From Leucocoprinus leucothites (taxonomy: Eukaryota > Basidiomycota > Agaricomycetes > Agaricales > Agaricaceae), in assembly GCA_013368445.1 (NCBI GenBank), contig JAACJO010000016.1, forward strand, positions 843,605 through 907,604: a DNA stretch of 64,000 nucleotides. Reading direction: 5' to 3'. Each line of letters starts with the position of its first letter. Positions within the stretch are counted from its first letter, which is position 1. Shown piece by piece: positions 14,460 to 33,606 of this stretch. A program made the position numbers and the translations under genes. The notes beneath the pieces are model-generated. The model did not search any database and was not told the origin of the DNA. It worked only from the letters and a program-made list of their open reading frames with translations.

Positions 14460-17400
14460 ATGGCTGTCCACCACATCCACTCCCGCCCTCTACCTCTCCC
14501 GCCATCGTCCCCGGCTTCCTCGGCCCGGTCATCGTCGGCATCCAAGACCCACGCTTTCTTTGCTTCGACCGGAGCCTCCACTGACGCGCCCTCCATGTCC
14601 AACGAGTCCAGCACGACGCCCACCCCGCCTCGCTCCCTCACTGCTGACTTTTTCAGCACTCCTGTCCGTACACCATCCCCGCCCCCGACTACTCGTAGTA
14701 CCAAGGCTGCTAGCATTCTCGCTGCTATACACCCCTCCCGTATATTTCCCTCTAGGTACACCTCCCGTGCTCACCGTGACGATGACGACGATCTACCTGA
14801 GCCTGTCTATCAACAACAGCCACCGACAGATCCAGGGTTGATGTTCCTTGAGCTCAATGATCAAGGTTTATCACTCATGCCTTCACCGTATACTCAACCT
14901 CCACGTGCTCTTTCCTCTCTTTCCTCCCTCTCTACTTCGTCTTCGTCGGATTCACACTCCTCGTCCCAGATTATACCCGAGTCCTCGTCAATCCCATCAA
15001 CACGACTACCTACCCCCCCTCCACCCCCCGAGCAGAGCGGTACCTCTAATTCGAATGCTACCCCGCGTCCTACCCATCTCGAGCCGAGTTTCACTACCTC
15101 TCCTGCTGCCAAGCTCTCTGGGACTACTACAGCGATTGATAATGACGATGAGGACCCCGCTCCGGGGTGTGTCATTACTACACACCCAACACCCCGCATA
15201 TCCTCCAACGAGGACTCTCCAACATTCACCATCACACCTCCACCTAACAGCACCACATTCCCCCACCATGTCACATCCGCACCTCCTCCGCCACCACAGT
15301 CACAAGATAAAACTAAACTACACCTCCTCCGTCCATTAGGCCAAGGTGCATTCTCTAGTGTCTGGCTTGCAGAAGACCATTCTCGTCTGCCTCTTACTCT
15401 TAAATCCAAGAAATCAATAAGAGAGTTGAGGAGAAAAGCAAGTTTATCTTCGAGGTCGAGAAAGTCGAGTATAAGAAGTGCAAGGAGTGTGTCCGGTGGT
15501 GCTGGCGGCACAAGTCATGCTACTCCTGCCATTGAGGATCTAACTTCACTTGGAAGAGATGGCTCCCTTCGCATGCGAAACCTCCGTGCGAGAGTCAAAG
15601 GAACCAGACCTGTAGGCTTCAACACTCATTTCCTCGACGAGCGACATGGAGAAATGGGTAAACGTACCGGTTCCTCCGAAGCCCATACGGGTGTATTGTC
15701 CTCCGACGGCGAACACTCGTCGAGTATGATCTTTTCACCACCTCTATCAGCCTCCAATTCTACATCCTCTGCTGATGGTGGCAGCGGTAGTGGGGCTTTG
15801 ACTTTGCGTGGATTAGGATTTCTCGGAGGGAGAGTGACTCCAGTGAAGGCGCCAAGGAAGAAATCTCGCAAGGCGAGGCTAGTTGCCGTGAAGATGACAC
15901 CCAGGCGTGCACTTGGCTTTGTTAATCCGAGCGGAAGAGACGAAGAGGAAGAGGAGGAGCGTACTAGGGTTGGCTTTGTTAGGGAGGTTGAGATTTTGAA
16001 GGTACGCGTTGAGCTCGCTCTCTCATTTTCGCTTTTTTTCGTTTCTGCGTTTCGGTTTTGGATTTTGTTCCTTTTTGGATCATGGATGAGGAGGAAGCGG
16101 CCGATGAAGAAGAGAGGAGGGAAGAATCAAAGACCCATCTGGACCCTCAAGTCCCTTTCGAGGGTATTTATACCCGCCCACTCTATCCCAAGCCGTTTCC
16201 ATTATCAGCGCCCACATACTCTTCGGCGATTTGAATGACCCCTTGTCGTATTTCCGATCCATCCGCAAAAGCGCCCATATTCATGACTTCTACCCTTACA
16301 CCTTCCTCTCGCCTACCTGAACCACCCTGTATCACTTCTCTTCTTTCGACAATCGCTTCCCGCCCTCCCTGCTGCACAGTCGTTATATCGTCCATCCAGT
16401 TGTCGTGATATGATTCTTTCGGCAACGTTCGGCGGAAACGAGGTATTTTAGGTGTTACGACATATTCCTCAAGGCTCTGAGGAATGTTGGGATTTTATGA
16501 GCATGCGGGAGAACGAAGGGCCCAGTTCTGTGTGGAGGTCCTCGTGCGCTGGATCACGGACCGCCGCTTACCTGTCACGGAAAGGGAAGGGAGAAGAGAG
16601 AGGGGAAAGGGAAGGAAGGAAAGAAAGGGTGGACGATGAACCAAGGGGGTGTTTATATACCCTCCCTCCTTTCGTACCCCTTCAACCCTATACCGCAGAA
16701 AGAAGAACCCTTGAGCGGACACGCGATATGCGCGCGCGTTACCTTATCACACGATCACCATCACTACCCCTCAATTATTCGCGATCGACCTGCCTTGCCT
16801 TCTTCTCAACTTGACGTTTTATTGCTTTCAAGCTTCTGGTATCTCAGATCCGGTCAATGGAAGCGAGACAAGGCACATTGACCAAGTGTGTTTTGTGTCC
16901 CTGAATTGAAACTGTGATAGACGCGGGTGGGCTGGTTTGCCTCGAGTTGCTTGATTTGCTTGTGTGCGGAAGGGTGGACTTGTGACCTTCGTTCTACTTT
17001 CATTCATTTGTTTTCTGTGCAGTCCGTGTAAGACGGCGCGCTGTTACTGGTGTTGGATGAGGGGTGGGGGTTCTTTCCTCTATTGATTCTCTTTTGTTCA
17101 ATTTTGCAATCAGACTTTGAATACTGATGATGATATATTTTCTAGCATATATCTCATCCCAACATCACTGTTCTGCTCGAACATATGTCAACGCCTTCGT
17201 ATCATATCCTCGTCCTGCCCTATCTCCCAGGTGGTGACCTGCTGGGTCTCGTTAATAATGATATCGCGTGGTCGAAACTTGGTACGTTCCTTCTCTTATC
17301 CTAGGCGCCTGTTGTGCTGATTGGGTTTGTAGGTGAGAGCGTACTCAGACGAATATGGTGCGAGCTGTGTAAAGCAGTCGGATGGATGCATGGTGTCGGT

Positions 17401-18612
17401 CTCGTTCATCGTGACATCAAGCTCGAAAACATACTCCTGACAACACATGCTTTCTCCTCCCTCACACCAACCTCACCTCGTCCGACACTCGCCACTCTCC
17501 CTGAGACACCGAGACCTTTGATCAAACTTACCGACTTTGGTCTTTCTCGGTTCATTGAAATAGATGAATTGACGGGTGAAGGCGAGTTACTCTGGACACG
17601 ATGCGGGAGTGAAGCCTATGCTGCACCGGAGTTGGTTATGGGTACGGGAAGTGTACGTGCTCAAGCTCAGGCTGATGCGAGACGGCGAAGACGCCGTCGA
17701 CCGTCTGGTACTGCTGGTGTTGATCACCACAAAGAGGAAGAGGAGGAAGAGGGTGTAAGAGGGTTTTATGATGCACGTGAGACGGATGCTTGGGCGTGCG
17801 GTGTTGTACTTTATGCGCTTGTCGGTCGGCGGTTACCTTTTGGTGAAGGTGTGATGGGAGGCAATGGTGGTGGTGGTGGGAGGATAGGAGGGGATGGGGC
17901 TCCTGGACATGGACATGGGAGAGCAAGTGCGGTGGAGAGGAGACAATGGTTGATGAGGATTGCGAGGGGGGAGTATGAATGGTCTGATAAGATGCCAGAG
18001 TTGTCGTCGAATCTCAACTCGACCTCTGTCACTGACGACGAAGAGTTGATCGGACAACAGTTAATTCACTCTGAGGGAGCTAAACGAATTGTGGGCAAGC
18101 TTTTGGTTCGTGATCCGAGGAAACGAGCGAGGATTATGGATTTGTGGGAGGATGGGTGGATGTGGGGACTTGGTGGGGGTTTGGCTGTGGGTATGACGGA
18201 GGAGGAGTGGAGGGAGAGTGAACGTGAGCGGATGCATGCTTCTTCGTCTGCTGGAATTGGCCTTGGGATCGATTTTGGTGGGGAGGGGTCTAACGAGCTT
18301 GATAGCTCGTTGTCCGCTTTCGCGGGACCTGATGGTAATGTGGGTGATGCAGGAGGTTGGGGAGTTGCAGAGCAGCCGGGAAGTGAGGAGGTGACGATTG
18401 ATGTGGATTATGCGAATGAGGAACATATATGGGATGAGGGGATGGTGGAAGAGGTTGGTGAAGAGCATCATGATCCGGTTGACGGTGATTGTGATCGTGA
18501 CGGTGAGGGTGAAGTGGAAGTGGAAGTGGAGGAGGAGGAAGTGGATGGGGAAGAGGGATGGTTGCTCGATCAAGAAGGAATTGGGAGTGTTGCGCGTCAG
18601 GAGGTTGTGTGA
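14460..18612 (+). CDS. Serine/threonine protein kinase, CAMK-like (Prr/Hal-type outline)
   Basis: Three exons (14460-16001, 17146-17281, 17333-18612) encode 985 residues. About 280 residues of Ser/Pro-rich disordered sequence precede the glycine loop LGQGAFSSVWLAE. A low-complexity insert of about 170 residues then separates this loop from the catalytic lysine strand VAVKMTPR. The helix-C glutamate lies in VREVEILK, which joins across the first intron to HISHPNITVL. The catalytic loop VHRDIKLEN, the DFG triad (LTDFGLSRF) and YAAPELVMG show an active kinase. The activation segment to helix F also carries Arg/Glu-rich inserts, and the tail after 18300 is very acidic. Substrates cannot be inferred. 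The first intron is 1,144 nt, far above the local norm. An upstream open frame begins at 14397 with a non-ATG codon, so ATG 14460 is chosen. Confidence 0.88.
16002..17145 (+). other. Unusually long (1,144-nt) intron of the kinase gene
   Basis: GTACGC donor at 16002 and TTTTCTAG acceptor at 17145 join in phase 0 and rebuild an uninterrupted kinase helix C to strand 4. Inside, the minus strand between about 16200 and 16480 has a coding-looking open frame (see findings). Confidence 0.75.
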
Positions 18613-19287
18613 CATAACGAGTCCTCTGAAGGATTTCTGGTGATATGTTGTTGAAGTAGGTGTTTATTCAAAGTGTTTGATTGTTGTTGTACCCCCAAAG
18701 ATGTGTATTGTGTTCGCATTATTATCTTTATTTCTCCTGTTCCCTCCGCGCCTAGTAGTTGTTCTCCGTGTGTTTGTGCTGTTATGTTCACGTGTTCATG
18801 ATTCAACCCCACTCTTTTTTCGTTCGTGTGTATCCGCATAGTTGTGACTGATAACATACAGTATATACTCGTAGCAAATTTTTTTTTAAGTATTGATAAT
18901 TCAAGTTTGTTGTACTCAGTGTTCGTACACTACGCATGATGTGAGGGCTTCATGATTATACTATGATCTTTGACGTCAACTCAAGTTCAAGCGCTCAGCG
19001 CTCAGACTCCATCCTCGACCTGTACTCAGCATGCTAGCCTCAAAAACTCTTAATCATGTCTCGTCTCCGTATGCTATGTATACCATGTCGGGCTCCCTGT
19101 GAATCTCTCATGGCATCCTGATTCCTGAGGCTGCATTCCCACTGCACAACACGATTGGGTGGGTCGGGCGCCTATGGTTTGCTATAAGTATAGACCCGGC
19201 GATCGATACGGTGTTTGGGAGAGGACTTTGTTGTCCCATTCATCCAGTTGTCCAAAAGCTCTAGGTAGAGGTACTCAACGGCTCCTA
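18613..19287. other. Intergenic, kinase 3' flank and Hsp70-like promoter
   Basis: No gene supported. A TATA-like GCTATAAGTATAG lies about 105 nt before the Hsp70-like start. I saw no clear heat-shock element cluster. Confidence 0.5.
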
Positions 19288-22081
19288 ATGCCTTCTGCAA
19301 AGGCCATCGGGATTGATCTCGGCACCTGCTATTCGTGTGTAGACTTTTTTTCTGCGGCGTCACAAATTGATACTGACCGATCTGACGGGATTTCTCTCTC
19401 TCTCTCTCGGGAAGGGCCTTACAGATGTGTTGGTGTTTGGCGGGATGATCGTGTAGAGATAATTGCCAATGATCAGGGGAATCGTACTACCCCTTCATAT
19501 GTTGCTTTTTCTGACAGTGAGCGGCTTATCGGCGATGCGGCGAGGAATCAGGCTTCCTCCAATCCTGTGAATACGTGCGTCAACTACTCTTTTGAGTTTT
19601 TAGTTAAATGATATAAACTTGCTTTGTAGTGTGTTCGGTACCAAGCGTTTAATTGGTCTCAATTTTGAAGATGAAAGAGTGGCATCCAATATCAAGATTT
19701 TTCCTTTCACTGTATTCAACAAGGGCGGAAAACCTTACATCCGCGTCCAATATCGAGGCAAGCAGAAGGAATTCGTCAGTTCATTGTAACCCTGGATCAT
19801 GGAGATTGCGGCAGACATTGATCATTTGCTTGTGTCTAGGCGCCGGAGGAAATTTCTGCTATGGTGTTAGGCAAGATGAAGGACACAGCCGAATCGTACC
19901 TGGGTGAAACTGTCACTGATGCTGTCATCACGGTCCCCGCTTATTTCAATGACTCCCAACGTCAGGCCACTAAGGATGCGGCCACTATCTCTGGTTTGAA
20001 TGCCCTCCGAATCATTCCTGAGCCCACTGTGGCGGCAATTGCCTTTGGTCTTGGAAAGAAGGTCGCCAAAGGCGACGAACGTAACGTTCTGGTATTCGAT
20101 CTGGGTGGGGGAACATGCGATGTTTCCTTACTTACCATCGTCGATGGGACTCTCTTTGATGTTAAAGCTACCGCTGGTGATACTCATCTTGGGGGCGAAG
20201 ATTTCGATAGCAGACTCGTTGCCTACTTCATCAAGGCCTTCAAGAACAAGACTGGCAAGGGTATAGATTTTGTCTCATCTATGCAGTGCACTTCTCATTT
20301 GCTTCATTGTTTTAACACTGTAGATATATCCGACAACCCTCGTGCCCTCCGGCGCCTGCGAATGGCCTGTGAGCGTGCCAAGCGGACCCTTTCTTCTGCC
20401 ACAACAGCTCCTATCGAGATTGATGCGCTCTTCGAGGGTATCGATTTCTACACTTCCCTTCCTCGTGCTCGTTTCGAGACGCTCTGCCAGGATCTCTTCG
20501 AAGCGACCCTAAAGCTTGTTGAGAGAGTCTTCTTTGATTCCAAAGTCGACAAGGCCACCGTTCACGAGATTGTGTTTGTTGGTGGTTCTACGCGTATTCC
20601 CCGAATTTCCGCGCTCGTCTCGGAATTCTTTGACGGCAAAGAACCTAACAGGAGCATCAACCCGGACGAGGCTGTTGCCCATGGTGCCGCGGCTGAGGCT
20701 GCCATCCTCTCTGGTAACGCTTCTGGGGTCCTCCTCGATGTTCTCCTACTTGATGTCACTCCAATGACACTGGGGTAAGTCCATGAGTGATTGCTACCCC
20801 TAGGATAATATCTAACTGCAGCTCTTTAGTATAAGGGCTGCTGGCGGTGCTATGACTCCTCTAATCAAACGCAACACAACTTTCCCTACTAAGAAATCAG
20901 AAATTTTCTCGACTTCTCTCGATAATCAACATGATGTTTCCGTCCGGGTCTATGAAGGTGAATCCCCCCGCACGAGTGACAACCGCCTCCTCGGCAATAT
21001 TAGACTGTCCGACATTCCTCCTGCTCCTCGTGGAGTTCCGCAGATTGAAGTTACCTTTGATCTTGATACCAACGGCATCCTGAACGTCTATGCCTCCGAC
21101 AAGATCACCGGAAAATCGACCCGTGTCACCATTACCAATGACAAAGGCCGTCTCTCCAAAAGAGAGATTGAACACATGTTCAACGAGGCCAGAAAATATA
21201 AGGGTGAATCATCTAGTTCAATCGGTGTTATGGCGTGTACTAAATTGTTATCGCTTAAACTATAGCTGAGGATGAAGCCAATGCTGCTCGAATTGCTTCC
21301 AGAAATGACCTGGAGTCGTACGCCTATGGCCTCCGTGATCATGTTACCTACCAAGATACTGCTGGCAATATTCCTAACGGCAAGCTCGTACTTCAGTCCC
21401 TCATTGACCAGACTATCACATGGCTCGATAACTCACCCGATGCTTCGAAATGGGACTACGATAGGATGCGGGAGGAGCTTCGCCGCGTTGTCAGGTACTT
21501 TTCTTACCATCATTTAAGCCTGATTTTTGATTTTTGATTGCTGTAGCTCTACTAATATTGAGGATATCAACAGTTCTCCGCACAACTTCCTATCCATCGA
21601 TGAGAGCGAGTCTGGTGATTCAAATCAAGAAGCAGGCAGTGCTCCCGCTAACTCAGGGCCCGACCCCGACTTTCCCATCGAACGGATGCATAATAGAAAC
21701 GTCTACCTTGAGGACGCTGGTTCGGATGACTCGGATGACTCTGAAGCTAATGAAGTTGTTCTTTTCCCAGCCATCGACTCTTCCATCTTCCACCAGTCGA
21801 ATGCAAATGAAGTTCATCACTCTACCGACAATCCCATTGAGCCCCCAGTCTCCGACGATAGTAAATCTGAATCTATCGTAACAGAGAGAACCCCGGTACT
21901 TGATGCTGTACATGAACCTTCTGAAGCGAATGGGCTTCGCGATTTGAGGCTGAGCGGCGGTGAAGGTACGGATGGTGTGGAATTGGCTGACTTGTTGTCA
22001 GCCAGCGAAGAATTAAATATTCATGAAGAGATTACTGATCAAGGTCGGGCCCTGATTTTTGTCCCTCAGTATTCTACCTAA
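19288..22081 (+). CDS. Divergent Hsp70-family ATPase with acidic C-terminal extension
   Basis: Eight exons (19288-19334, 19425-19574, 19630-19774, 19840-20260, 20324-20774, 20830-21203, 21266-21494, 21547-22081) give 783 residues if translation stops at 22081. The nucleotide-binding domain has [12 protein letters not shown], the [15 protein letters not shown] phosphate loop, [13 protein letters not shown] and [11 protein letters not shown]. The peptide-binding domain follows ([46 protein letters not shown]), then the start of the helical lid. Beyond the lid the usual Gly-rich tail with EEVD is absent. Instead there is a Ser/Asp/Glu-rich extension of about 160 residues ([14 protein letters not shown]). 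A predicted 58-nt intron at 22044-22101 would remove the stop and continue in frame into the kinase at 22122. Several unusual substitutions mark it as a diverged paralogue, not the main cytosolic Hsp70. Confidence 0.85.
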
Positions 22082-22101
22082 CTCAGAAACCGATTTTTAA
22101 G
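22044..22101 (+). other. Candidate 58-nt intron joining Hsp70-like and kinase coding sequences
   Basis: It begins GTCGGG, has a CTAAC branch-like sequence, and ends TTTTTAAG about 19 nt later. Removing it deletes the Hsp70 stop codon and keeps phase (1) with the frame containing the kinase ATG. The donor and the AAG acceptor are weak, so this is an inference. Confidence 0.5.
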
Positions 22102-22121
22102 AAGTTCGGAGAGCTGGTGGC

Positions 22122-23647
22122 ATGAAAGACCAGGTAATACATACCAGGTGTAATTTATTCTCCTTGTCTGGTCCTAACTTCATCTACAGGACACAGAAGA
22201 TACCCTAGTCCTACTCTGCCATGTTTTACAAAAGAAAGAGTCACGAATCGCCTTGCGTAGCTTGAGAGGCGACCGTGCACAAGCCATAATCGAGTATCTT
22301 TATTTCGTGCGTGTGGCAGCCCTCTATATCACAACAGCCGCTCGATACTCATAGACTTGTCTCAGGTACTGTTACAGCCAGTGTTTCCAACGCCCTGGCT
22401 CCGCAAATATTGCCTTGTTGAGCTTTATAAGCTTTGTAAAGCCACGTTGCTTTACCCATACTGTTATGCGCTAAAGAAGTCTATCCTCATTGGTCAACAA
22501 GAAAGCAGCGGTGGATTTTCTGATATCTTCAGGGGACGTTTCGGCGAGAGGGATCTCTGCTTAAAAGTGGTCCGCCTTTACCAGAAATCAGACACAGATG
22601 CTCTGCTAAAGGTTCGCGGTAAAAATAACATTCCTCCCTTTCTCGAGGTATTGACCTTGTCAGCTTTATGCCAAGGAAGTGATACTATGGGGCCATCTTC
22701 AACATCCGAACATTGTACCATTCTACGGTGCATACTACTTCAACGAACTGCACAGGCAAATCTGTCTTGTTTCGCCTTGGATGCAGAGGGGAAATTTAGT
22801 TGAATACCTGAAACGACACACATCGGTGCCTCGTATTCCATTTGTAAGTTCAGCTACGCTTCGCAAATTTCATAGTACCTAATCCTTGAAGGTTTTCGAC
22901 GTAGTCTCTGGACTGAATTACCTGCACGATCAAGACCTGATACATGGTGATCTCAAAGGGGTATTTAGTCTGTACTATTACTTATCTATACTCGCTCATA
23001 TCCTGTGACACAGATCAACATTCTCGTCAATGAGCTTGAGAGGGCTTGCATAACAGACTTTGGACTCTCTAGCATCCGTACAGACAGAACACTTGCACAC
23101 TCACTTGCCTCGTCTACGACACAGGGAATCACCCACCGCTGGGCTGCGCCAGAGCTCCTTGACAATATGCAGCCTACCCTGGCCAGTGACGTGTGGGCTC
23201 TTGGATGTGTCTGTTATGAGGTATGTGGGCTGGCCCCGTGCTCCAATCGTCATCCGAAACAATGGCTAACTAATGTTCTCCTAGATCTTGACGGGGATGT
23301 TGCCATTTCACGACTTAAGAGAGATTCAGATAGTTCGAGCACTTATCAGGGGCGACGCACCAACACAACCCCGTCCTGCATCCCATTTGAATGACGGGGA
23401 AAGAATCATTTGGGAGCAGGTCGATCGTTGTTGTCTAGAGGAACCCGAGGAACGACCGAGATGCGAGCAAATTTTGTCTGATCTTCGAGCAGCTGGTCTA
23501 TCGAGGGAAGACGCCACTCAAACCCAAGAGTACGTTAACCGCGAGAGGCAGGATTTCTGGGATGCGATGAGAGACGGCGAGGAAGAGCCAGTCGACTTGA
23601 ATATGGTCAAACAGATTCTCAAAGACTTGAGCGATTCTAGTGGTTGA
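22122..23647 (+). CDS. TKL-type protein kinase, probably the C-terminal part of an Hsp70-kinase fusion
   Basis: Exons 22122-22133, 22190-22306, 22366-22611, 22664-22843, 22892-22960, 23014-23220 and 23285-23647 give 397 residues if translation starts at the only nearby ATG. An N-terminal helical segment (SLRGDRAQAIIEYL through LYPYCYALKK) is the extension usual in Agaricomycete TKL kinases. The kinase domain has a degenerate glycine loop (SSGGFSDIFRGRF), catalytic Lys in LCLKVVRLY, helix-C Glu in YAKEVILWGHLQHPN, catalytic loop HGDLKGINIL (HGD for HRD, common in this group), ACITDFGLSSI and HRWAAPELL. The Asp, Lys and DFG residues suggest activity. It starts only 40 nt after the Hsp70 stop, leaving no room for a normal promoter. 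Summed exon lengths with the Hsp70 part are divisible by three (1,175 residues). Confidence 0.85.
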
Positions 23648-24097
23648 ACTTGTGTCATGTTATAGTGCCAGCACCGATGAGGGACATCTCGTTCCCCAGT
23701 CCGACGATTATTGCTTTGTGTATAGAGTTGCTTCATTGTACGGGATAACACAGCTACTAAGGAGAGATCAGGATACGTGCGCTTCAGGACGGGACATTTC
23801 TGTCGGTGATGCAGTGGACCTCGTCTACTCATTAAACAAACAGCAAGTGGGTCCCCTGACTTCTTAGTTGGACATCTCAAAAAAATAGCAAAACACAACC
23901 ATGCTGTCTCCCTAGATGATGCATTCTTCAAAATCTAGCTTACGGGAGATCATCACTCTGGGGATGTTCTACCTCTGTTCATCGTGAAAAGCAATTTGCA
24001 AGTATCAAACACTGAGTATTGAGTGGTGGTAGTAGTTAATACATCTAGAGAGGGGGTGACTGATATATAAAATACAGTCATCAAGGAATCACGGTCA
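23648..24097. other. Intergenic between convergent kinase and P450 genes
   Basis: No gene supported; it holds the 3' ends of two convergent genes. Confidence 0.5.
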
Positions 24098-26419
24098 TCA
24101 GAGCGCAACAGGTCGAATAAGCATAGGAAGCAGATTTGTGCCTTTCGGATCCGTCCTCAGAACAGGCCGAGAAACGATTTCCGATCGTGTGATAATATCT
24201 GACACTGGGACGGCCAGCTCAAACTCAAAGGCTCTCACCAGAGTGAAAAGCAAGGCTTTCATCCTAACATATCAATGTAGTGTCAGTTTAGAAGGCTGGG
24301 AGAAAACAGAAAACGCACTCGAGGAGAGAGAACCTGTACCCAATGCAAGAACGAGGTCCCCCGAAAAAGGTAAGCTGGTTCCCCCAGACACCAGGTATGC
24401 TCATCGCTGCATCAGGTGGTGATTTCCATCGTTCCGGACTGAGATTACCTGTGAGCTCACCAAAGGCAGAGCAATCGATTGCGTCACTTACTTGAATTCG
24501 CCCGCATCTTTTCCCCAAATTTCTTCCAGCCGATTCACCATAGCGAGCGAAATAAATACAGTCTGCCCTTTCGTGACGCTATTCGAAAAAAGGTCACCAC
24601 AAAACATCTTTAGTCCCATAGAATTTCCCACTTACTGTATTTCATGGTGTACTTTCCCATTCTTGTCAACTACCGGGTTTTGGAGGGGAATGACATCGTC
24701 CTCTGCTGCAACACGCACTGTGGATGGGACGGGTGAATGGAATCTCAGCGTTTCTCGAATTACAGCATCAAGATAAGGTAGCGCATTGAGTTCGTCCATG
24801 TTTGGATTTTCGGAAGGCACGTCAAGCAGCTCATCACGCAGTTTGCGTTGAATGGCGGAGTTTTGAGAGAGCGAGTATAAGGCCCAAGCTGTCGCTGTGC
24901 TGTACATGATGAATACCGAGCTGATGCACACATGTAGGAGGATAAAGGCTAGTTACCTTGTTGTCTCGTGTCCCGCAACGATGAAGGTTGGGATTTCTAC
25001 GAGATGATGAGTAAGGCTACAATGAACTAGAAGAGAACATGGCACTTACGTGCAAGCACTTGTTCCTCTGGAAGTCGGTGTTGCTTTTCGCCACTCGCAT
25101 TTGCACGAACCAAGAGTGACAAGAGATCATTTGCTCCGCTGTCGCTCTTCTCAGGATGCGCTGGATCAAACGCAAGCTCTCGTTCTGTGAGGAGCTGCTT
25201 CCCTATCCGATCCATGGTTCCTCGCGCTTTGTCTGTTTCTATGTCACGTTCAGCAGACTATGTTGGCCCAGGTCAGTTAATTGATCTTGAAAGGAATCTG
25301 AGGACGAACCAGGAACCGCGTGGCTGGTATGAGCCCTCGGAGTAGCCGAACAACACTAGGGGATGTTCCGACTTTGAACATGATCTTGAAGGCATCGTGC
25401 AACTCATTGGGTTGGTCCGGTTCTTCGTTGAGTGCGTCAAACTTGTAACCAAATCCTACATGTCACGTCTCATTTCAGCTGAAAACCGAGGACTTGAAAC
25501 GAGATGTATACCAGCTTCCCCGATGACGTCTAGAGTAGTTCGACTCAGCCAAGATAACACGTCGATTTGTCGCTGTTCTCCGTCGGCTTGCTGTATCTGA
25601 TTCGTCCAGATATCCCTCAACTTCGATCTCGTCATTAGATGTGATTATATACATCGGCTGAAGTAGCGTACCCTGACCGCCTTGTCTAGGAAAGTCGCAG
25701 TGAAGCGTTTGATCTCGGGTGGCGAGAATGCAGGATTCTTGGCAGAAAATGAGTCAAGAAATCACCGTTATTACAACTTCTAGCTCACGAGTATTTTTCT
25801 CTAAAAATCGAAATATTCGTGAGTTTCGAGTTCGCAGAGCCCACAGAAAACATACCTGCTTCTTATGAACATCCGAGTCAACCAGAACTATCCCTTTTTG
25901 ATGGCAGAAAATCAGCCTCCCAGTAGAGATTGAATCAAGCATTACACACCTGGGCCAAGCAATCGGAGTAAGTTGTAAGCCATAGCCATGGGCTTCCTCC
26001 AGGTGCCTGTGTCTTTCTTGACGATATGGCCGATAGCTTTGACATCCGCAGTGAAAAGCCAGTTGTCCTGAACCAAACAACATGAGTTGAACATGCGCTA
26101 ATGAGACAGGGGGCATTCACACTCACCCAAAGCACCGCTTTAAACTTGAAGGTCGTCCCGTGCTCCTTTGCATGGCGTTCGTGTACTGCAGCTTGGTCCT
26201 GGAAACAATTCGGCTTTCAGCAGACAAGCTAGACATCAGAGGCACACGAACCATAAACATCATGTCCTTCATGTTCCCGATAAAAATATTCGCGCTAGAC
26301 AGGCCAGGTAGATCCCTAATTGGCGAGGTAAAGTCACGATGCAGCGCGCCATAGGCTTTGTAGAGCACGTAGAGCGCGACCAACCCACCCAGGGAGAGGG
26401 AGATCTGTGCAAGAGACAT
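24098..26419 (-). CDS. Cytochrome P450 monooxygenase
   Basis: A multi-exon gene (about ten exons) of normal P450 length. The start [20 protein letters not shown] is an N-terminal membrane anchor, followed by a Pro-rich hinge (SPIRDLPGL). The I-helix oxygen-binding motif is AGHETT (near 24,980). The K-helix ExxR is in [15 protein letters not shown]. The meander PERW lies near 24,440. The heme loop [13 protein letters not shown] near 24,350 carries the thiolate Cys. The C-terminal end (MLIRPVAL, stop at 24098) fits. Fungal P450s of this type act in the ER membrane with a reductase; the substrate is unknown. ATG 26419 is the first real ATG. The gene is divergent from the MCP1-like gene. Confidence 0.92.
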
Positions 26420-27702
26420 ATCAAACAAGAGACACAGGGGCGCCCGAGGAAGGGAGATGGTGGGCAGGAAGGCCAGTTATAAGGGACACCTCACGCAATT
26501 TCGGCAGCCGCTTGCCTGCAGGAAGCTCCTGAAGGCGCTTATTGACAGACATCTCCACATTCCATCAGTCCCTTCAGCGCTGTTCATTTCGAGACAGCGA
26601 GACAGGATTTTTCCGTGAATAGATTACGATGGCTATCCTACTCCGCAGTTCAAGATTACAAGCAAGTATCCCAATTGGCATCTGCAGGGTCTGAGGGTAT
26701 TGAGCCCGAGTTGGAACGCGTCCGAGTCGAGGGAGATTCTGTCACCTGCCGAAGTGCCGCGGTGAATTCAAAAATTGTAATTGTGACAGCTTGTTCAGCC
26801 GCTTCGGAGGCATGAAGGCCTGAGGTGTTGTCACTAAGATTACAACGTTGAAGGTCGTGGAATTGGTCGTCTTGAACTTGACTCAGTAAATATGTTTCCC
26901 CCGAGACTTTCCGCGATTCAAATCACGGAAACGGAAGAGGTCGGTCACACACACGAGGAACTCATATCCTTGGACCCAGGATCACCTTCGAGTCAGACGA
27001 TTCCTTTGGGCGTTTTTCCTCTCAATGCCAATGATTCTTTTTGTTCTCTATTGGTGCCATGACGCTCAGCGTGACCTCGGGCCAATTGAAGTTGCGAATG
27101 GCCTCTTTTTGGCCGCTTATTACGGTCTCAAGGCGGTTCACCTACCCACGTACACTCCTTTTTCAGGATTAAATTATCATCCATGGATCAATAATTGCAT
27201 AGAATTAAAAGGATCAAGTCGGGAGTCGAGCCTCTTGTTTCCGACAAACCGCCTCTGTGGACAGCAACATATTCCCTCCACCTGAATATGCCTGAACCCC
27301 CTAAATGGTGCGCTGTAACTGAAAGCTGATCTTCTGACCTCCAATTGCGACATCTTTGATTTTTGTCATAGCCTGATTCCCTCGCCTAGCACTCGGCATC
27401 ACCAACGTCTAGCTTTGGGATACACACTCACGCATGGTCGGTGCTCGATAGATGCATTGAAGAGCTTCTAATCCACTCATCACAGCTAGTGGTTATATTG
27501 ATCGCGCGGACTGAGTAGCAGGCTACAGGACAAAAGAATAGTTCCGGAGATATTAGGGATATAAGCGTAGCGGAAATCAATGCCCGAAAACTTGGAGCCC
27601 GCAGAGATGCGCGCCTAGTCGGTTTGATCGCTGATCATGAGTCCATAAATAGAGAAGAATTGATGGTCATGACATCTGATCGTGCCCTCTTCCCCACACA
27701 CC
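26420..27702. other. 1.3-kb divergent promoter region between P450 and MCP1-like genes
   Basis: No supported gene. It contains both upstream regions; a TATA-like CATAAATAG lies about 60 nt before the MCP1-like start. Confidence 0.5.
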
Positions 27703-28533
27703 ATGTCAGCTAGTCCCAGCAACACTCGAAAGACAGTTTTGAACGTGTTAACGACCGTCTCGCATGTGACTTCACCGTTTATCTCAGTATTCCTCCTAGT
27801 TCACCTTGCGGCACCAGTACTCGCCAATGTAGGTGGAACGAATCTTGCATCCCAGACAATGGTACGCGTCTTTCTTTACAACACTCAATAATCGGTTGTT
27901 AATTAACGTTCTTCATGGCAGATTCTTGGCCGGGAGTACTATCAAACTCCTATAGGAGAAGGCCTGCTTGCTCTGGGACCTATAGTTGTTCATTCCATTG
28001 CTGGAATATCCAAACGACTCCTGCTCACCGCACCCTCCAACAAACCATCGGGCGTGGACGGTAAATCATCCGAAAAACGTGCCACCTCCCACAGACCTCT
28101 CACAACACTATTGGGTCTCACGGGCTACGCGACTGTACTCATATTCCTTCCTGTCCATTTCCTTGTCCATAGAGACTACCCAGCTCTCCCGATTGAGCCC
28201 ATATCCTCTGTGGGACCCGCTTCCTTGGATTACGAATACGTTAAATACGGACTACATACCTGGCCATGGAGGAGCTGGTTCCTATATGCAGGCCTTGTCG
28301 GTTCCGTCGCTCTCCATGCTGCAGATGGAGCTACTCTCATTTGGAACACGTGGTTCAAAGATAGCTGGGGTAATCTGTCCCGCAAGACGCGTAGGACAAT
28401 CGCAGTCGGGGGTATTATTATCCCAGTATTACTGGGTCTTACCGCAATTGCTAGAGAACCTCCCATGATAATGTCATTTTTGCAAAATCGGTATCATGCT
28501 GCTTATACGCAGTCGATTGCTTTCCGGGTTTAA
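27703..28533 (+). CDS. MCP1: MCP1-like mitochondrial outer membrane protein (MCP1_TM/DUF1691)
   Basis: Two exons (27703-27861, 27922-28533) encode 256 residues. Hydrophobic segments include SPFISVFLLVHLAAPVLA, GLLALGPIVVHSIAGI, the LLGLTGYATVLIFLPVHF span with following His, and FLYAGLVGSVALHAADGA near the middle, then a final span IAVGGIIIPVLLGLTAIA. Repeated His residues inside the helices and the overall layout match the Mcp1 family, whose yeast member recruits Vps13 to mitochondria and suppresses ERMES loss. The family call is from recognised pattern, not a search. Its 3' end faces the ATPase gene about 100 nt away. Confidence 0.75.
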
Positions 28534-28637
28534 GTGAACAAAATATGTTACATTACAGAACTTTGTATTTACAAATATTGCCCATCGAGGGAATCGAATA
28601 GAACAAGAATCCCCACTCCAGTAGAATGTCAAGCTCG

Positions 28638-31600
28638 TCATTGTTTGACGCTCATTGTCCTCATAGTAGGGACTACCACGAAATCATCAGCGTCTAGGCA
28701 TGCGTCAGGATTTACCAGGAGTGAAGGCACTTACACATCATGAGTCCCTTGATATCCTTCACCCGCTTATGCTCAACACTACCTCTCAAGATTACGACAC
28801 GTATTGATGCCCATGCCAGGATAACGATACCGAATGCCACAGGGATGAGCCAGTAAAGTGGCAAGAGATGGTAAGAGCCGCCAAACACGACATGCAAGGG
28901 CGGAGTATAAATGACGAAGACACCAAGTGCAGCACCACCCAAGATACCGATGAAATTCCACATATTGCTGACAACGCGGCGACCGAATGGGTATGTAAGC
29001 CGTGCTTTTACCGCGAAGACATTGAAGGATTGGGTGATGAAAATCGAGATATAGACAACGGATTGGGCTTGACCCAAAGCGTCAACTTGTTGAGCGGCAG
29101 TGAGTATGCGACCGGCAGAGTTAATGAAATCCGGGGCGCCCCCCACAAAATAGACTGAAATGCGTAAGTTATTAGTTACTTGGGGGTGGGTAAGAAAAGG
29201 CTGCTTTACCTCCGGCTTTCTGTGCTTGGCATAGGTCCGAGGGGGTGAATCCATTCTTCCAGAACACGACAAAGTAGGCGACCATTCTATAACCCAATCA
29301 GCCTAATCTTCCTCCTGATTGGATTATACTCACTCTGCAATCGCTTCAAGAAATCCGAATTCGAGATAGGAATAACTCAGGAGGTTACGGTCAACGAGTT
29401 TCTCGCCATCGCTTTCCTCTAATAGATCTTGCCAGAAAATTTTTGTAAATGGTGTCTTCAGCCAGTTAATCCCTTGCCTGATCTTGGAAAAGCTGATACG
29501 ATCTTGACTTTCAGTATCTCTTCCCAGCGTCTTGACACGTCTTAAAGCACGCCTCTTGAGTGAGAGAATGGAACGATCGTTGACTAGTCATTTGCATCAG
29601 CATCTTGGTGACACTATGAGTAGAATGAAGCTTACCCGGTTTCCTTGGGCTCAAGCGCATTAAACCATCGTCTGTCTCAGGCTTGTCCCAAGCGAAAGTA
29701 AGCTTAAAGAATTGAATTCAGTCAAGGAACCTGCTTGATAGGGGGAGGAACATACACCCATGAACAAGTCGAAACCAAGGTCTATGGTAGGGTGAATAAA
29801 CCTCAAGGCAAATTTATTGTCAATTCTTACTCACCGATTACCAGGATCAGAATAGCGGTGAGGGGAAGGGGTATGGGTACGACAACATCTAAATCGTAGG
29901 TCAGCTTTTGGTGATCTCAAAAAATCAATTTGCGCTCACAAAGAAGCTGTGGGATGACTTCTGGGGTACTATGGGTAATGGTGTACCTAGAGCAGTCACT
30001 TAGATTACTTCTGCCCAATCTAGGACGTATCAAGAATTCCTCACTGAATGGAACGCTTCAGGTTGTTGAAAATAAGGCGCCCCTCTGCCACACCCTCTAG
30101 AATTCAATCAAGGAGAGCTCGTGTTGTCACAGGAGTCCATATACTCACTGACGGTGGACGCAAAATTATCGTCTTCATGAAAAACTTCAGTATTTAGGTG
30201 TCTAAGTTCTGATTGGGTGATCCCTTACCGAGCAGGATCATGTTGGCAGCCTCTTTCGATACGTCCGAGCCAGATATGTTCATAGCGATACCCAAGTCAG
30301 CCTAGAGACAATATGTCAACCCACGGTACCACCCAAAGAAAGGAATATGCAGCGCACCTTCTTAAGAGCAGGAGAGTCGTTAACACCGTCCCCAGTGCTA
30401 AAGGCGGTCCCTTTAGTCAGAGGTGATAAGTTTTATCGAGTCGACTTACACTCCAACGATATGACCCAAAGCCTGAGCACGTTTAACTACGGAGTTGGCA
30501 CATCAGGTCAATGAGCAGTAGAAGGGTTCTATAAATAGGACCCACCGATTTCAAGCTTATGCTTGGGAGTAGTACGAGCAAACACAATCTCAGATTTGCC
30601 GAAGACTAGTGGAGACATCAGATAACAGAAAAATGCGAAGAAAACCGCAGAAACTGACTCTGATCCCATTGCCATCCCTCGAGGCTATCAATATCATCGC
30701 CGTGGATAACAACAGCTGAAACCTCATCCTCGTAAATCTCCTCGGTGGGTCGTCCGGTCTTAGCACTCAGCGACTCTTTCGTATCCCCAAGAATGAGATT
30801 TATCTTGCGTGCGATGGCTTCAGCGGTCTTTGGGTGATCACCTTTTCCGGTATGTGGGGTCAGCCAATCTGCTACTCGCGACGTATATGTGGAGTTCACT
30901 GACCAGTAACCATCATAACCTTGATTCCGGCCAAACGAAGAGTACCGATAGCTTCGCGGACGCCGTGCTTAGGAGGATCTTCAAGAGAGACAAGACTTAT
31001 AAAACAATATCCTTCGCTCGGGTAGTTCAAATCTTGTTTGCTGAAAGTGTAGTCGATAGGATATTCTTCACCAGGAAGAAGGTACTGTGCGCAGCCAATC
31101 ACACGATGACCTCGGGACGCCATGTACTGCAGGATAACAATTCAATGAGCATCATTCATCAGCATCGAATAATGGCTATTATTACGTTGTAGGCTTCCTC
31201 ATATCCTTTACGGAATTCGTCGTCGATAGGGTAGAGTTTACCGTCTTTGAGGTATGTCGTACATTTCGCCAAAACGCGCTCGGGGGCACCCTTAAGCAAG
31301 GCACTCAGGCAGCCAGAATTGTGTGTCTTTTTCAGCTAAAGGTCGTGGTGTTGATAAGGGTGATCAATTATTGTGAAGCCCACTTACAATAACCAAAGCC
31401 CATTTATTAGTGGAGTTGAAAGGAACTAGAATGACAGACTCGGCTATAAGCACTGAGTGACCTCGAGCAAAACGGAGCAACTGACTCTCAAAAGCTTTGA
31501 AATAGGCCTTGATGTATGCATCGTAATCAGATGGCAAGTATCGAGCGGCAAACCGGGTGAGACCGGTTTCTGTTGCATCACCAAGAATGGTCCTCTGATC

Positions 31601-33606
31601 AAAAGGAACGTCCACCTTGTCGAACTTGATACGGGAGTTAAGCGCTGATATATCAACCGTTTCCCTCATACCGGACGCCTCCAGGCTAAAATTCTCGGTT
31701 CCTTCTTCATCGTTATTGGACTGATGTGCCAAAATCAATCCCACTGACCCCTAGAGATGAAGGATGAGACTTACCTGGAAAGTGGTGAACATCCTTGCAC
31801 CGCTCCAGACATTTGTGACCTATTACCTCAATGAGCCTCGAATTCGGATCTGTGAGTAAGAAAGGCATACCGTCATCTGGTTCCTTGTCAGGGTACCTGT
31901 TTTGTCAGTTGCAAGGAGTGTGAGCTTGGTGGTTGTTAGTCGTTGTATAAATAGGATCCACCAAAACCGGCTTACTGAACCGAGGGTCTCAACGCCTTGG
32001 AGGTCCTTCACAAGAACATTTTGATCTGCCATGCGCTTTGCTGCGATAGAAAGCAAAAGAGTAACCACAGATGGTAGACCCTCCGGAACAAAGGCCACAA
32101 GAACAGAAACAGCAAAAGTGACGGTGGCCGCGACCTTGCCCTTGTAGACGGTGGTGATCCCGACTGCAAAGAAGACAATAGCGAAAATAAGTGCAATGAG
32201 AGAGACGACGATGACAAAGAGGCCGCTGTAATTTATTAGCCAGATGATAGCATATGGCTAATGGGCGGGCTTACATTTCAACTCCGAGAGGACTTTTGTT
32301 TCCCGTCTCGCCACCAGTCAAATTAGCGATTTGACCTAGACAGGAAATGACTTGGTCAAGACGCTCTGCTTGAGTACGTTCAACAGTAGACTCACCGATG
32401 AAGGTTGCGTCGCCAGTACGGACAACGACTAGAACACAGTCAGAATGGAGTCAAGATCTAATAGTATGGATAGCACTCACTTCCCCATGCTTCACCATTG
32501 ACCACCAGCGTTGAGTTGAACACCTGCAGATATGTCAGTGGCGCCGAAAGAATGGCATGTCGGGGCACACCAAATTCTCAGCTTCTGCCGGACGAAGTTT
32601 AGATCCATGTGGCATGGGAAAACGCTCCTGAGGTTCCGACTCTCCAGTAAGACTACTGTTGTCGACCTTGAGCTCCGAGGCAGCAAAGACAAGGAGATCA
32701 GCGGGAGTTTTGTCGCCACTCCTCTACAAATAATCTTGAGTAGAGAACGAGGGGGAGCGATTTAGGGAACACACCAGAAGAACAATGTCACCCTTGACTA
32801 AGTCTGCGGCAGGTTTATTCTGGATTGTTCCGTCGCGGACAACGTGACACGTCGGTGGAATCATGGCAAGGAAAGAGGCCAGAATAGCCTCTGATTTTTG
32901 CAGCTGGTAAAAGTCCACAAACGCGTTGATGAAAGCTACTCCAATAAGGATAGCACCAAAGTAGGTGTTCGAGAAGTTGGCCTGAAGACGAGAGTTAATG
33001 ATGAAAAGTAAAGCAGATCTAAGGAACTCGCTACCTTGAAGTCGATTGCCAATAAAATGTACTCCAGGATACCAGCAACAATCAAAAGAATGTTGAACAT
33101 GGTGAATAGTCGATCAATGAACTTATCAAAGTTAGCTATTGCAGACACGGAGGGCGTCAGCGGCTGCACACCTTCATCAAAGCTGAGCGTTTCTTCGGCG
33201 GGGTAAGAACATTGGGTCCATCCCGCTGGAGGCGTGTTTTGGCCTCTTGTTCGGTCAAACCACGAGATTTTGGGGCCTCTTTGTGATCGAACGACGTGCC
33301 GAAAGTGTTTTCAATCGCGTCAAAGGATAGATTGTGCTCCGAGATGTCGAGGTCGGTGTCTTCTGAGGAGTTATTCTTGGTTTGCTTCTGCTTTGCGGTC
33401 TCGAGATGTTCATAGCCAGCCTCGGCGAGCTCGCGATCTTCTTGGGTGAGAGTTCGCTTTATTTCCGGACCTTTGGGACGATGTTGTCCGATATGGTCAT
33501 GAGGCTTTTCATCGGCTGGGAAGGCGATCGCTCGTTGGGTAGTATTAATCACATCGTCGCCAATGACCTCTTTCCGAGGCGATGAATGGTCCAGAGCAGG
33601 GCCCAT
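28638..33606 (-). CDS. P-type ATPase, type IIC (Na+/K+-ATPase-like)
   Basis: Large multi-exon gene. A long hydrophilic N-terminus precedes [19 protein letters not shown], the cation-ATPase N-terminal motif. In order follow [13 protein letters not shown] (actuator), [13 protein letters not shown] (M4 ion-site helix), [17 protein letters not shown] (phosphorylated Asp), a nucleotide domain including [34 protein letters not shown], and four C-terminal membrane spans. The [13 protein letters not shown] and [11 protein letters not shown] motifs point to subgroup IIC, like animal Na,K-ATPases, rather than fungal ENA (IID) pumps. The last junction (T|gtaagtgcc to a TAG acceptor) gives a short tail ending at TGA 28638. 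A TATAAAA lies about 60 nt before the start. It is likely a plasma-membrane alkali-cation pump; the ions are not provable here. Confidence 0.92.

Follow-up and report, generated by a model that had tools for sequence, protein, structure and literature searches.

An Hsp70-kinase fusion gene predicted in Leucocoprinus leucothites

The window analysed here, a stretch of 64,000 nucleotides (nt) from contig JAACJO010000016.1 (C16) of the 47.0-Mb Leucocoprinus leucothites genome, very probably holds at positions 19288-23647 of the plus strand one gene in which an Ssa-type Hsp70 is genuinely fused to a TKL-type kinase. One polypeptide is the best reading of this stretch because the intron at the junction looks homologous to an intron of sister kinase genes, because the terminal exon of the Hsp70 gene is absent, and because the same architecture is present in a protein of Leucocoprinus birnbaumii. 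The single Hsp70-kinase chain proposed in a preliminary description of this DNA is supported on each of these points. PMC9469724 names strain CBS 146.42, presumably the one that was sequenced; extraction of total RNA is mentioned in PMC7368018, probably the genome paper, whose main text does not name the species.

Rebuilt from conserved exons, the model consists of 15 exons that sum to 3,528 nt and encode 1,175 amino acids and a stop, which reproduces exactly the 1,176 codons counted before, and no stop or frameshift occurs in any of the exons. In the joined model, Pfam recognizes HSP70 at residues 6-606 (740.6 bits) and PK_Tyr_Ser-Thr (137.5 bits). If the junction intron is left in place, the Hsp70 frame closes at TAA 22079-22081, inside the CTAAC of this intron, and the ATG of the kinase at 22122 follows 40 nt downstream, as had been described; in the rebuilt model, removal of the 58-nt intron does eliminate this stop and bring both parts into one frame, again in agreement with the earlier claim. 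GenBank already joins Hsp70 and kinase at this locus in D9756_009020 (P0001), a hypothetical protein of 1,099 amino acids, so the architecture, previously regarded as novel, is new as a domain combination and not as a joint gene model. The model of P0001 removes the alternative junction intron given in Table 1, with the same AAG acceptor as in the 15-exon model, lacks Hsp70 exon 1 and skips the kinase exon with the catalytic loop (22892-22960); at exon 1 and at this kinase exon the 15-exon model is the better one.

The Hsp70 half covers positions 1-591 of the 599 in the HSP70 profile, a full match, and shares 440 of 602 aligned residues with the canonical Ssa of the same genome (contig C5, locus L009), a protein of 649 amino acids with the C-terminus VEEVD. 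The seven introns of the canonical gene lie at codon/phase 16/2, 66/2, 115/0, 252/1, 402/2, 527/1 and 604/2, and those of the window gene at 16/2, 66/2, 115/0, 255/1, 405/2, 530/1 and 606/2, so places and phases match and the offsets represent small insertions or deletions only. The final exon of the canonical gene encodes the PIMQKLYG...VEEVD end, while exon 8 of the window gene, which follows the intron matching the last one of Ssa, encodes an unrelated acidic sequence. An Hsp70 with both of its domains, an acidic Ser-rich tail and no C-terminal EEVD, as first described, is therefore what the model contains, and a search with tblastn for a remnant of the Ssa tail in 21495-22250 gave nothing credible (best E 1.3). 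Absence of the EEVD should abolish contacts with the co-chaperones that read this motif. The ATP-site residues D10, T13, K71, E175, D201, T206 and D208 of the model are intact, and we take them to be the counterparts, in position and role, of D10, T13, K71, E175, D199, T204 and D206 of Hsc70; changes against the own Ssa include T14C, N174P and F207C in model numbering. For the Hsp70 exons, comparison with the own Ssa gave a pN of 0.157 and a pS of 0.663, a synonymous distance near saturation, and the low pN indicates that this half is under purifying selection. Palindromic heat-shock elements (GAA..TTC or TTC..GAA) were not found in 18613-19287, and neither were they found in the 700 nt upstream of the canonical Ssa, hence their absence is uninformative. 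At a further locus, L010 (contig C21, about 75-77 kb), the canonical Ssa is present as a decayed copy whose reading frame is broken; this copy was excluded from the Hsp70 tree.

In regard to the junction, ten GenBank kinase proteins of L. leucothites were mapped onto their own loci. In five of them (P0005, P0006, P0009, P0018 and P0028), a phase-1 and then a phase-0 intron, with an exon of 65-95 nt between them, precede the kinase region, and the phase-1 donors follow AAG in four cases and CAG in one. The order in the window is alike, with a phase-1 intron, a 32-nt exon and a phase-0 intron. The donor of D9756_010860 (P0005) reads CTGATCAAG followed by GTCAAC, and that of the window reads CTGATCAAG followed by GTCGGG, with a run of 12 nt in common. 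The window has 7,542 GTs, counting both strands, and 22044 is the one nearest to the P0005 donor, with runners-up at 11 nt; a 12-nt run with any of 87 mapped donors is found at seven of these GTs (a test made without P0020, whose locus is truncated). Taken together, the junction intron looks homologous to the phase-1 intron of the sister kinase genes. Donor 22044 is favoured over donor 21966 of the GenBank model because of this 12-nt run, against a best run of 8 nt between 21966 and the mapped donors; we regard 22044 as the probable junction donor and leave to 21966 a smaller, though appreciable, chance. Since both donors are phase 1 and in the same frame, the frame would be kept by either.

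The domain order of the window gene is also found in L. birnbaumii NP233_g9567 (P0007), labelled hypothetical by NCBI, which carries PF00012 and PF07714 and whose residues 330-1105 are 43% identical to P0001. The earlier proposal to look for Hsp70 and kinase in one protein of another Agaricomycete was thus answered by P0007, among the matches listed. The protein searches scored at most about 8,000 candidates each. PF00012 together with a kinase occurred in two proteins (P0001 and P0007) among the best 120 of 396 matches to residues 600-1175, in the same two alone among the best 120 of 3,936 matches to P0007 330-1105, and in P0001 alone among the best 120 of 4,073 matches to the Hsp70 lid and tail. 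In the tree of the Hsp70 half (25 rows), where 3 of 22 inner branches are well supported, as well as in that of the kinase half (29 rows), L. leucothites and L. birnbaumii pair at 100/99. Both species also have C for F in DLGGGT(F/C)D, which fits a common origin, and the simplest reading of these comparisons is that the fusion took place once, in a common ancestor of both Leucocoprinus species. P0003, a Logan protein with an N-terminus that looked like an Hsp70 lid, was dropped, as Pfam gave no HSP70 in it up to E 0.1. GenBank models with PBP and B56 ahead of Hsp70 exist in Tetrapyrgos nigripes (P0310) and Paramarasmius palmivorus (P0320), and these are probably false merges of neighbouring genes. 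A literature search restricted to papers outside subscription yielded no published description of an Hsp70-kinase fusion, and none is described in the accessible part of PMC7159879.

The kinase half holds the motifs LCLKVV, IHGDLKG, DFGLSS and AAPELL, corresponding to the catalytic Lys, the HRD-type loop, DFG and APE, shares introns inside the kinase domain with the sister kinases, and is grouped in the kinase tree with P0007, P0005, P0006 and P0014 at 96/91. Against the copies on contig C69, dN/dS was 0.10 for kinase exon 14 and 0.13 and 0.21 for exon 15, values indicating that both exons are under purifying selection. The 39-residue N-terminal exon of the kinase had no match in PDB up to E 1. 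Other N-terminal parts found in its relatives are EH, PF24883, PF00018 and PF25586, of which PF24883 is presumably NACHT-like and PF00018 presumably SH3. One of these relatives, D9756_008099 (P0014, L053:3290-5919), has an N-terminal EH domain at residues 226-298, and L053:4156-4530 is open without a stop from the EH sequence into the helical region of the kinase. As a single stop-free exon spans both, the EH-kinase joint is free of any doubtful splice, and P0014 is apparently a precedent in which another housekeeping-type domain was captured by the clade of the window kinase. An expansion of FslK kinases in Agaricomycetes is reported in PMC3937382, where the exact functions of the mushroom-expanded family are said to remain to be determined. 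The window gene is a new domain combination within a known, expanded kinase family of mushrooms.

Several other copies of kinase sequence were observed in the genome. Contig C69:1137-10000 (L051) repeats window 23010-31885, from inside the kinase onwards, at 91.4% identity over 8.9 kb, measured to the end of the compared stretch, as in a diverged haplotype or a segmental duplicate. On the same contig, C69:7-404 is a second kinase 3' end and C69:596-1133 is a copy of 24863-25393; therefore, the kinase end is tandemly duplicated there. Kinase matches with equal scores and spacing at C39:41794-43127 and C75:11662-12995 suggest a duplicated or haplotype contig.

The two halves are connected by an acidic, Ser-rich linker of about 180 residues in total, most of it encoded by exon 8 and probably disordered; in the AlphaFold model of P0007, the mean pLDDT is 62.8 and residues 625-701 are below 50. 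No unfused relative with this Hsp70 tail was seen among the best 120 of 4,073 matches, a search insensitive enough to miss P0007 as well, and a DNA search of the genome revealed no second copy of the junction.

A number of observations weigh against a single fused gene. Splice sites were scored against a reference of 105 introns, comprising 13 of the window gene and 92 of the 96 mapped from the GenBank sister-kinase proteins, four having been dropped for poor flanks. Donor 22044 is the third lowest of this set, 44% of the plus-strand GTs in the window score at least as high, and an equally good join is available at 13.2% of 3,208 random pseudo-stop sites. The phase-1 intron is present in only five of the ten mapped sisters; P0020, P0025 and P0032 have the phase-0 intron without it (the mapping of P0025 starts too late to judge), P0014 and P0031 have neither, and all these sister models are themselves GenBank predictions. 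The similarity of the linker between L. leucothites and L. birnbaumii is not significant, with 13.6% of 500 shuffles reaching an equal score. The architecture is found in two species among the matches listed, the joint model of P0007 was compared through its protein record, and the fused product of the window is predicted from genomic DNA. With a length of 1.94, the Hsp70 branch of L. birnbaumii is very long, and long-branch attraction may have had some part in its placement. Finally, gene callers do merge neighbours, as P0310 and P0320 illustrate.

Both junction sites had been called poor, which holds for the overall score of the donor; as types, AAG acceptors and GTC donors are each unexceptional, being used in 9 and 10 of the 105 introns, respectively. 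Counted from the bottom, the junction acceptor ranks 26th and donor 21966 ranks 61st. Of the 105 introns, 103 are 47-90 nt long, a usual range that includes 58 nt but not 136 nt. Among 61 joins that keep the frame and are free of stops, 22044-22101 scores best, and its total of 5.85 is only slightly higher than the 5th percentile of real introns (5.21), the 25th being 9.57. The splice scores thus permit the junction intron and fall short of proof.

An alternative explanation is that two tandem genes share a bicistronic or readthrough transcript, with an Hsp70 of 783 amino acids ending at the stop at 22081 and a kinase starting from ATG 22122. Polycistronic transcripts of mushroom-forming fungi are documented in PMC4503453, and a gap of just 40 nt between stop and ATG, together with a stop that interrupts the kinase frame at 22098-22100, would suit such a unit, but the mean inter-ORF (open reading frame) distance given there, 364 nt, is far above 40. 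Moreover, the canonical terminal exon would be missing from a separate Hsp70, and the phase-1 intron of the sister genes would be left without a start exon of its own, which makes this arrangement improbable. Somewhat less probable still is a merger by gene finders of two independent genes, with the kinase promoter inside Hsp70 exon 8 and the joint models wrong in both species. P0310 and P0320 look like such mergers, and P0001 is faulty at the two places mentioned above; however, the Hsp70 of P0310 and P0320 is C-terminal and reaches profile position 598/599, whereas the window Hsp70 loses its last exon, and the sister pairs stand in the same order in two species. Least probable of all, and hardly to be expected, is a real fusion in a gene that is decaying or silent. 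The L. birnbaumii copy is long-branched in both trees and C69 holds duplicated, truncated pieces of the kinase, as decay might produce, yet the 15 exons are without stop or frameshift, the catalytic motifs are kept, and dN/dS in kinase exons 14-15 and pN in the Hsp70 are low.

The fusion gene that we prefer very probably arose when the 5' portion of a gene for an Ssa-type Hsp70 was captured upstream of a mushroom TKL-like kinase gene. The sequence shows that Ssa exons 1-7 are retained with the seven intron positions, that exon 8 stands in place of the absent EEVD exon and ends at a donor matching that of a sister kinase, and that the kinase exons come after the short exon and the phase-0 intron, in the order of the sister genes. 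Splicing from 22044, or in frame from 21966, to 22101 would yield a protein of 1,149-1,175 residues, in which the ATPase and peptide-binding domains of Hsp70 and the acidic linker are followed by the helical region and by a kinase that keeps its catalytic motifs. As a rule, Hsp70 is a separate chaperone that acts in trans on signalling kinases. Here, the Hsp70 module may act as a targeting or regulatory domain under the control of nucleotide and client, so that tethered client binding might bring the kinase to clients, change its activity or relieve its inhibition when a client is bound. J-protein control may be altered by the substitutions at N174 and close to the ATP site. If the intron were retained, the product would be an Hsp70 that lacks the kinase and has a short additional tail, and the weak donor could in that case act as a switch.

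A bolder and rather unlikely possibility is a splice-gated chaperone-kinase, in which the weak 22044 site would yield both Hsp70, ending 12 residues past the donor when the intron is retained, and Hsp70-kinase, in a ratio shifting with stress. The Hsp70 would then be the sensor of the kinase, with client load or ATP state setting kinase signalling directly within one chain, and the clade would repeatedly capture the 5' parts of housekeeping genes, with Ssa and an EH-domain protein as captured input domains. 

With Hsp70 and kinase in one covalent chain, it could be tested directly whether the state of client or nucleotide is able to drive a kinase. Such a gene would also demonstrate that a kinase family expanded in mushrooms has captured a housekeeping chaperone at the level of exons.

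Table 1. Features of the predicted Hsp70-kinase gene (window coordinates)
Feature	Position	Strand	Basis or remark
Hsp70 (Ssa-type) part, exons 1-7	19288-21494	+	HSP70 profile; 440/602 aligned residues as in own Ssa
Hsp70 introns	19335-19424, 19575-19629, 19775-19839, 20261-20323, 20775-20829, 21204-21265	+	Rebuilt model
Last Hsp70 intron, phase 2	21495-21546	+	Same codon as last intron of canonical Ssa
Exon 8, breakpoint exon; 3' end CTGATCAAG	21547-22043	+	Replaces canonical NPIMQ...EEVD exon
Candidate junction intron, phase 1, 58 nt; donor GTCGGG, branch-like CTAAC, acceptor AAG	22044-22101	+	
Alternative junction intron of GenBank model, 136 nt; donor GTACGG, frame kept	21966-22101	+	
Short exon, ends MKDQ; holds ATG 22122 (hypothetical separate kinase start)	22102-22133	+	
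Phase-0 intron ahead of kinase N-terminal helical region	22134-22189	+	Counterpart in 8/10 mapped sister kinases
Kinase part, six exons: helical region, then TKL-type kinase	22190-23647	+	Catalytic Lys, HGD, DFG, APE
Kinase introns	22307-22365, 22612-22663, 22844-22891 (AAG acceptor), 22961-23013, 23221-23284	+	Rebuilt model

A short way upstream of the gene, at 17305-18612 and also on the plus strand, lies a further protein kinase frame (PF00069, 79 bits).

Compared with known systems, the predicted gene has the complete HSP70 domain and the seven intron positions in common with the cytosolic Ssa/HSS1 Hsp70 of Agaricomycetes (L009; P0245), but it differs from them in being without the NPIMQ...EEVD exon and in having the linker and the kinase attached. 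Two close ORFs on the same strand are likewise a feature of the Agaricomycete polycistronic units described in PMC4503453; in those units, however, the ORFs are separate with stops in all frames between them, whereas in the window an intron matching that of the sister genes would remove the stop. With the expanded mushroom TKL or FslK-type kinases (D9756_010860, D9756_011431, D9756_008099 and others), the window kinase, putatively FslK-type itself, shares the helical region, PK_Tyr_Ser-Thr, HGD or HSD, and DFG, while its N-terminal partner, unlike theirs, is a nearly complete Hsp70. The closest counterpart is P0007 of L. birnbaumii, both halves of which pair with those of L. leucothites, although its linker is shorter.

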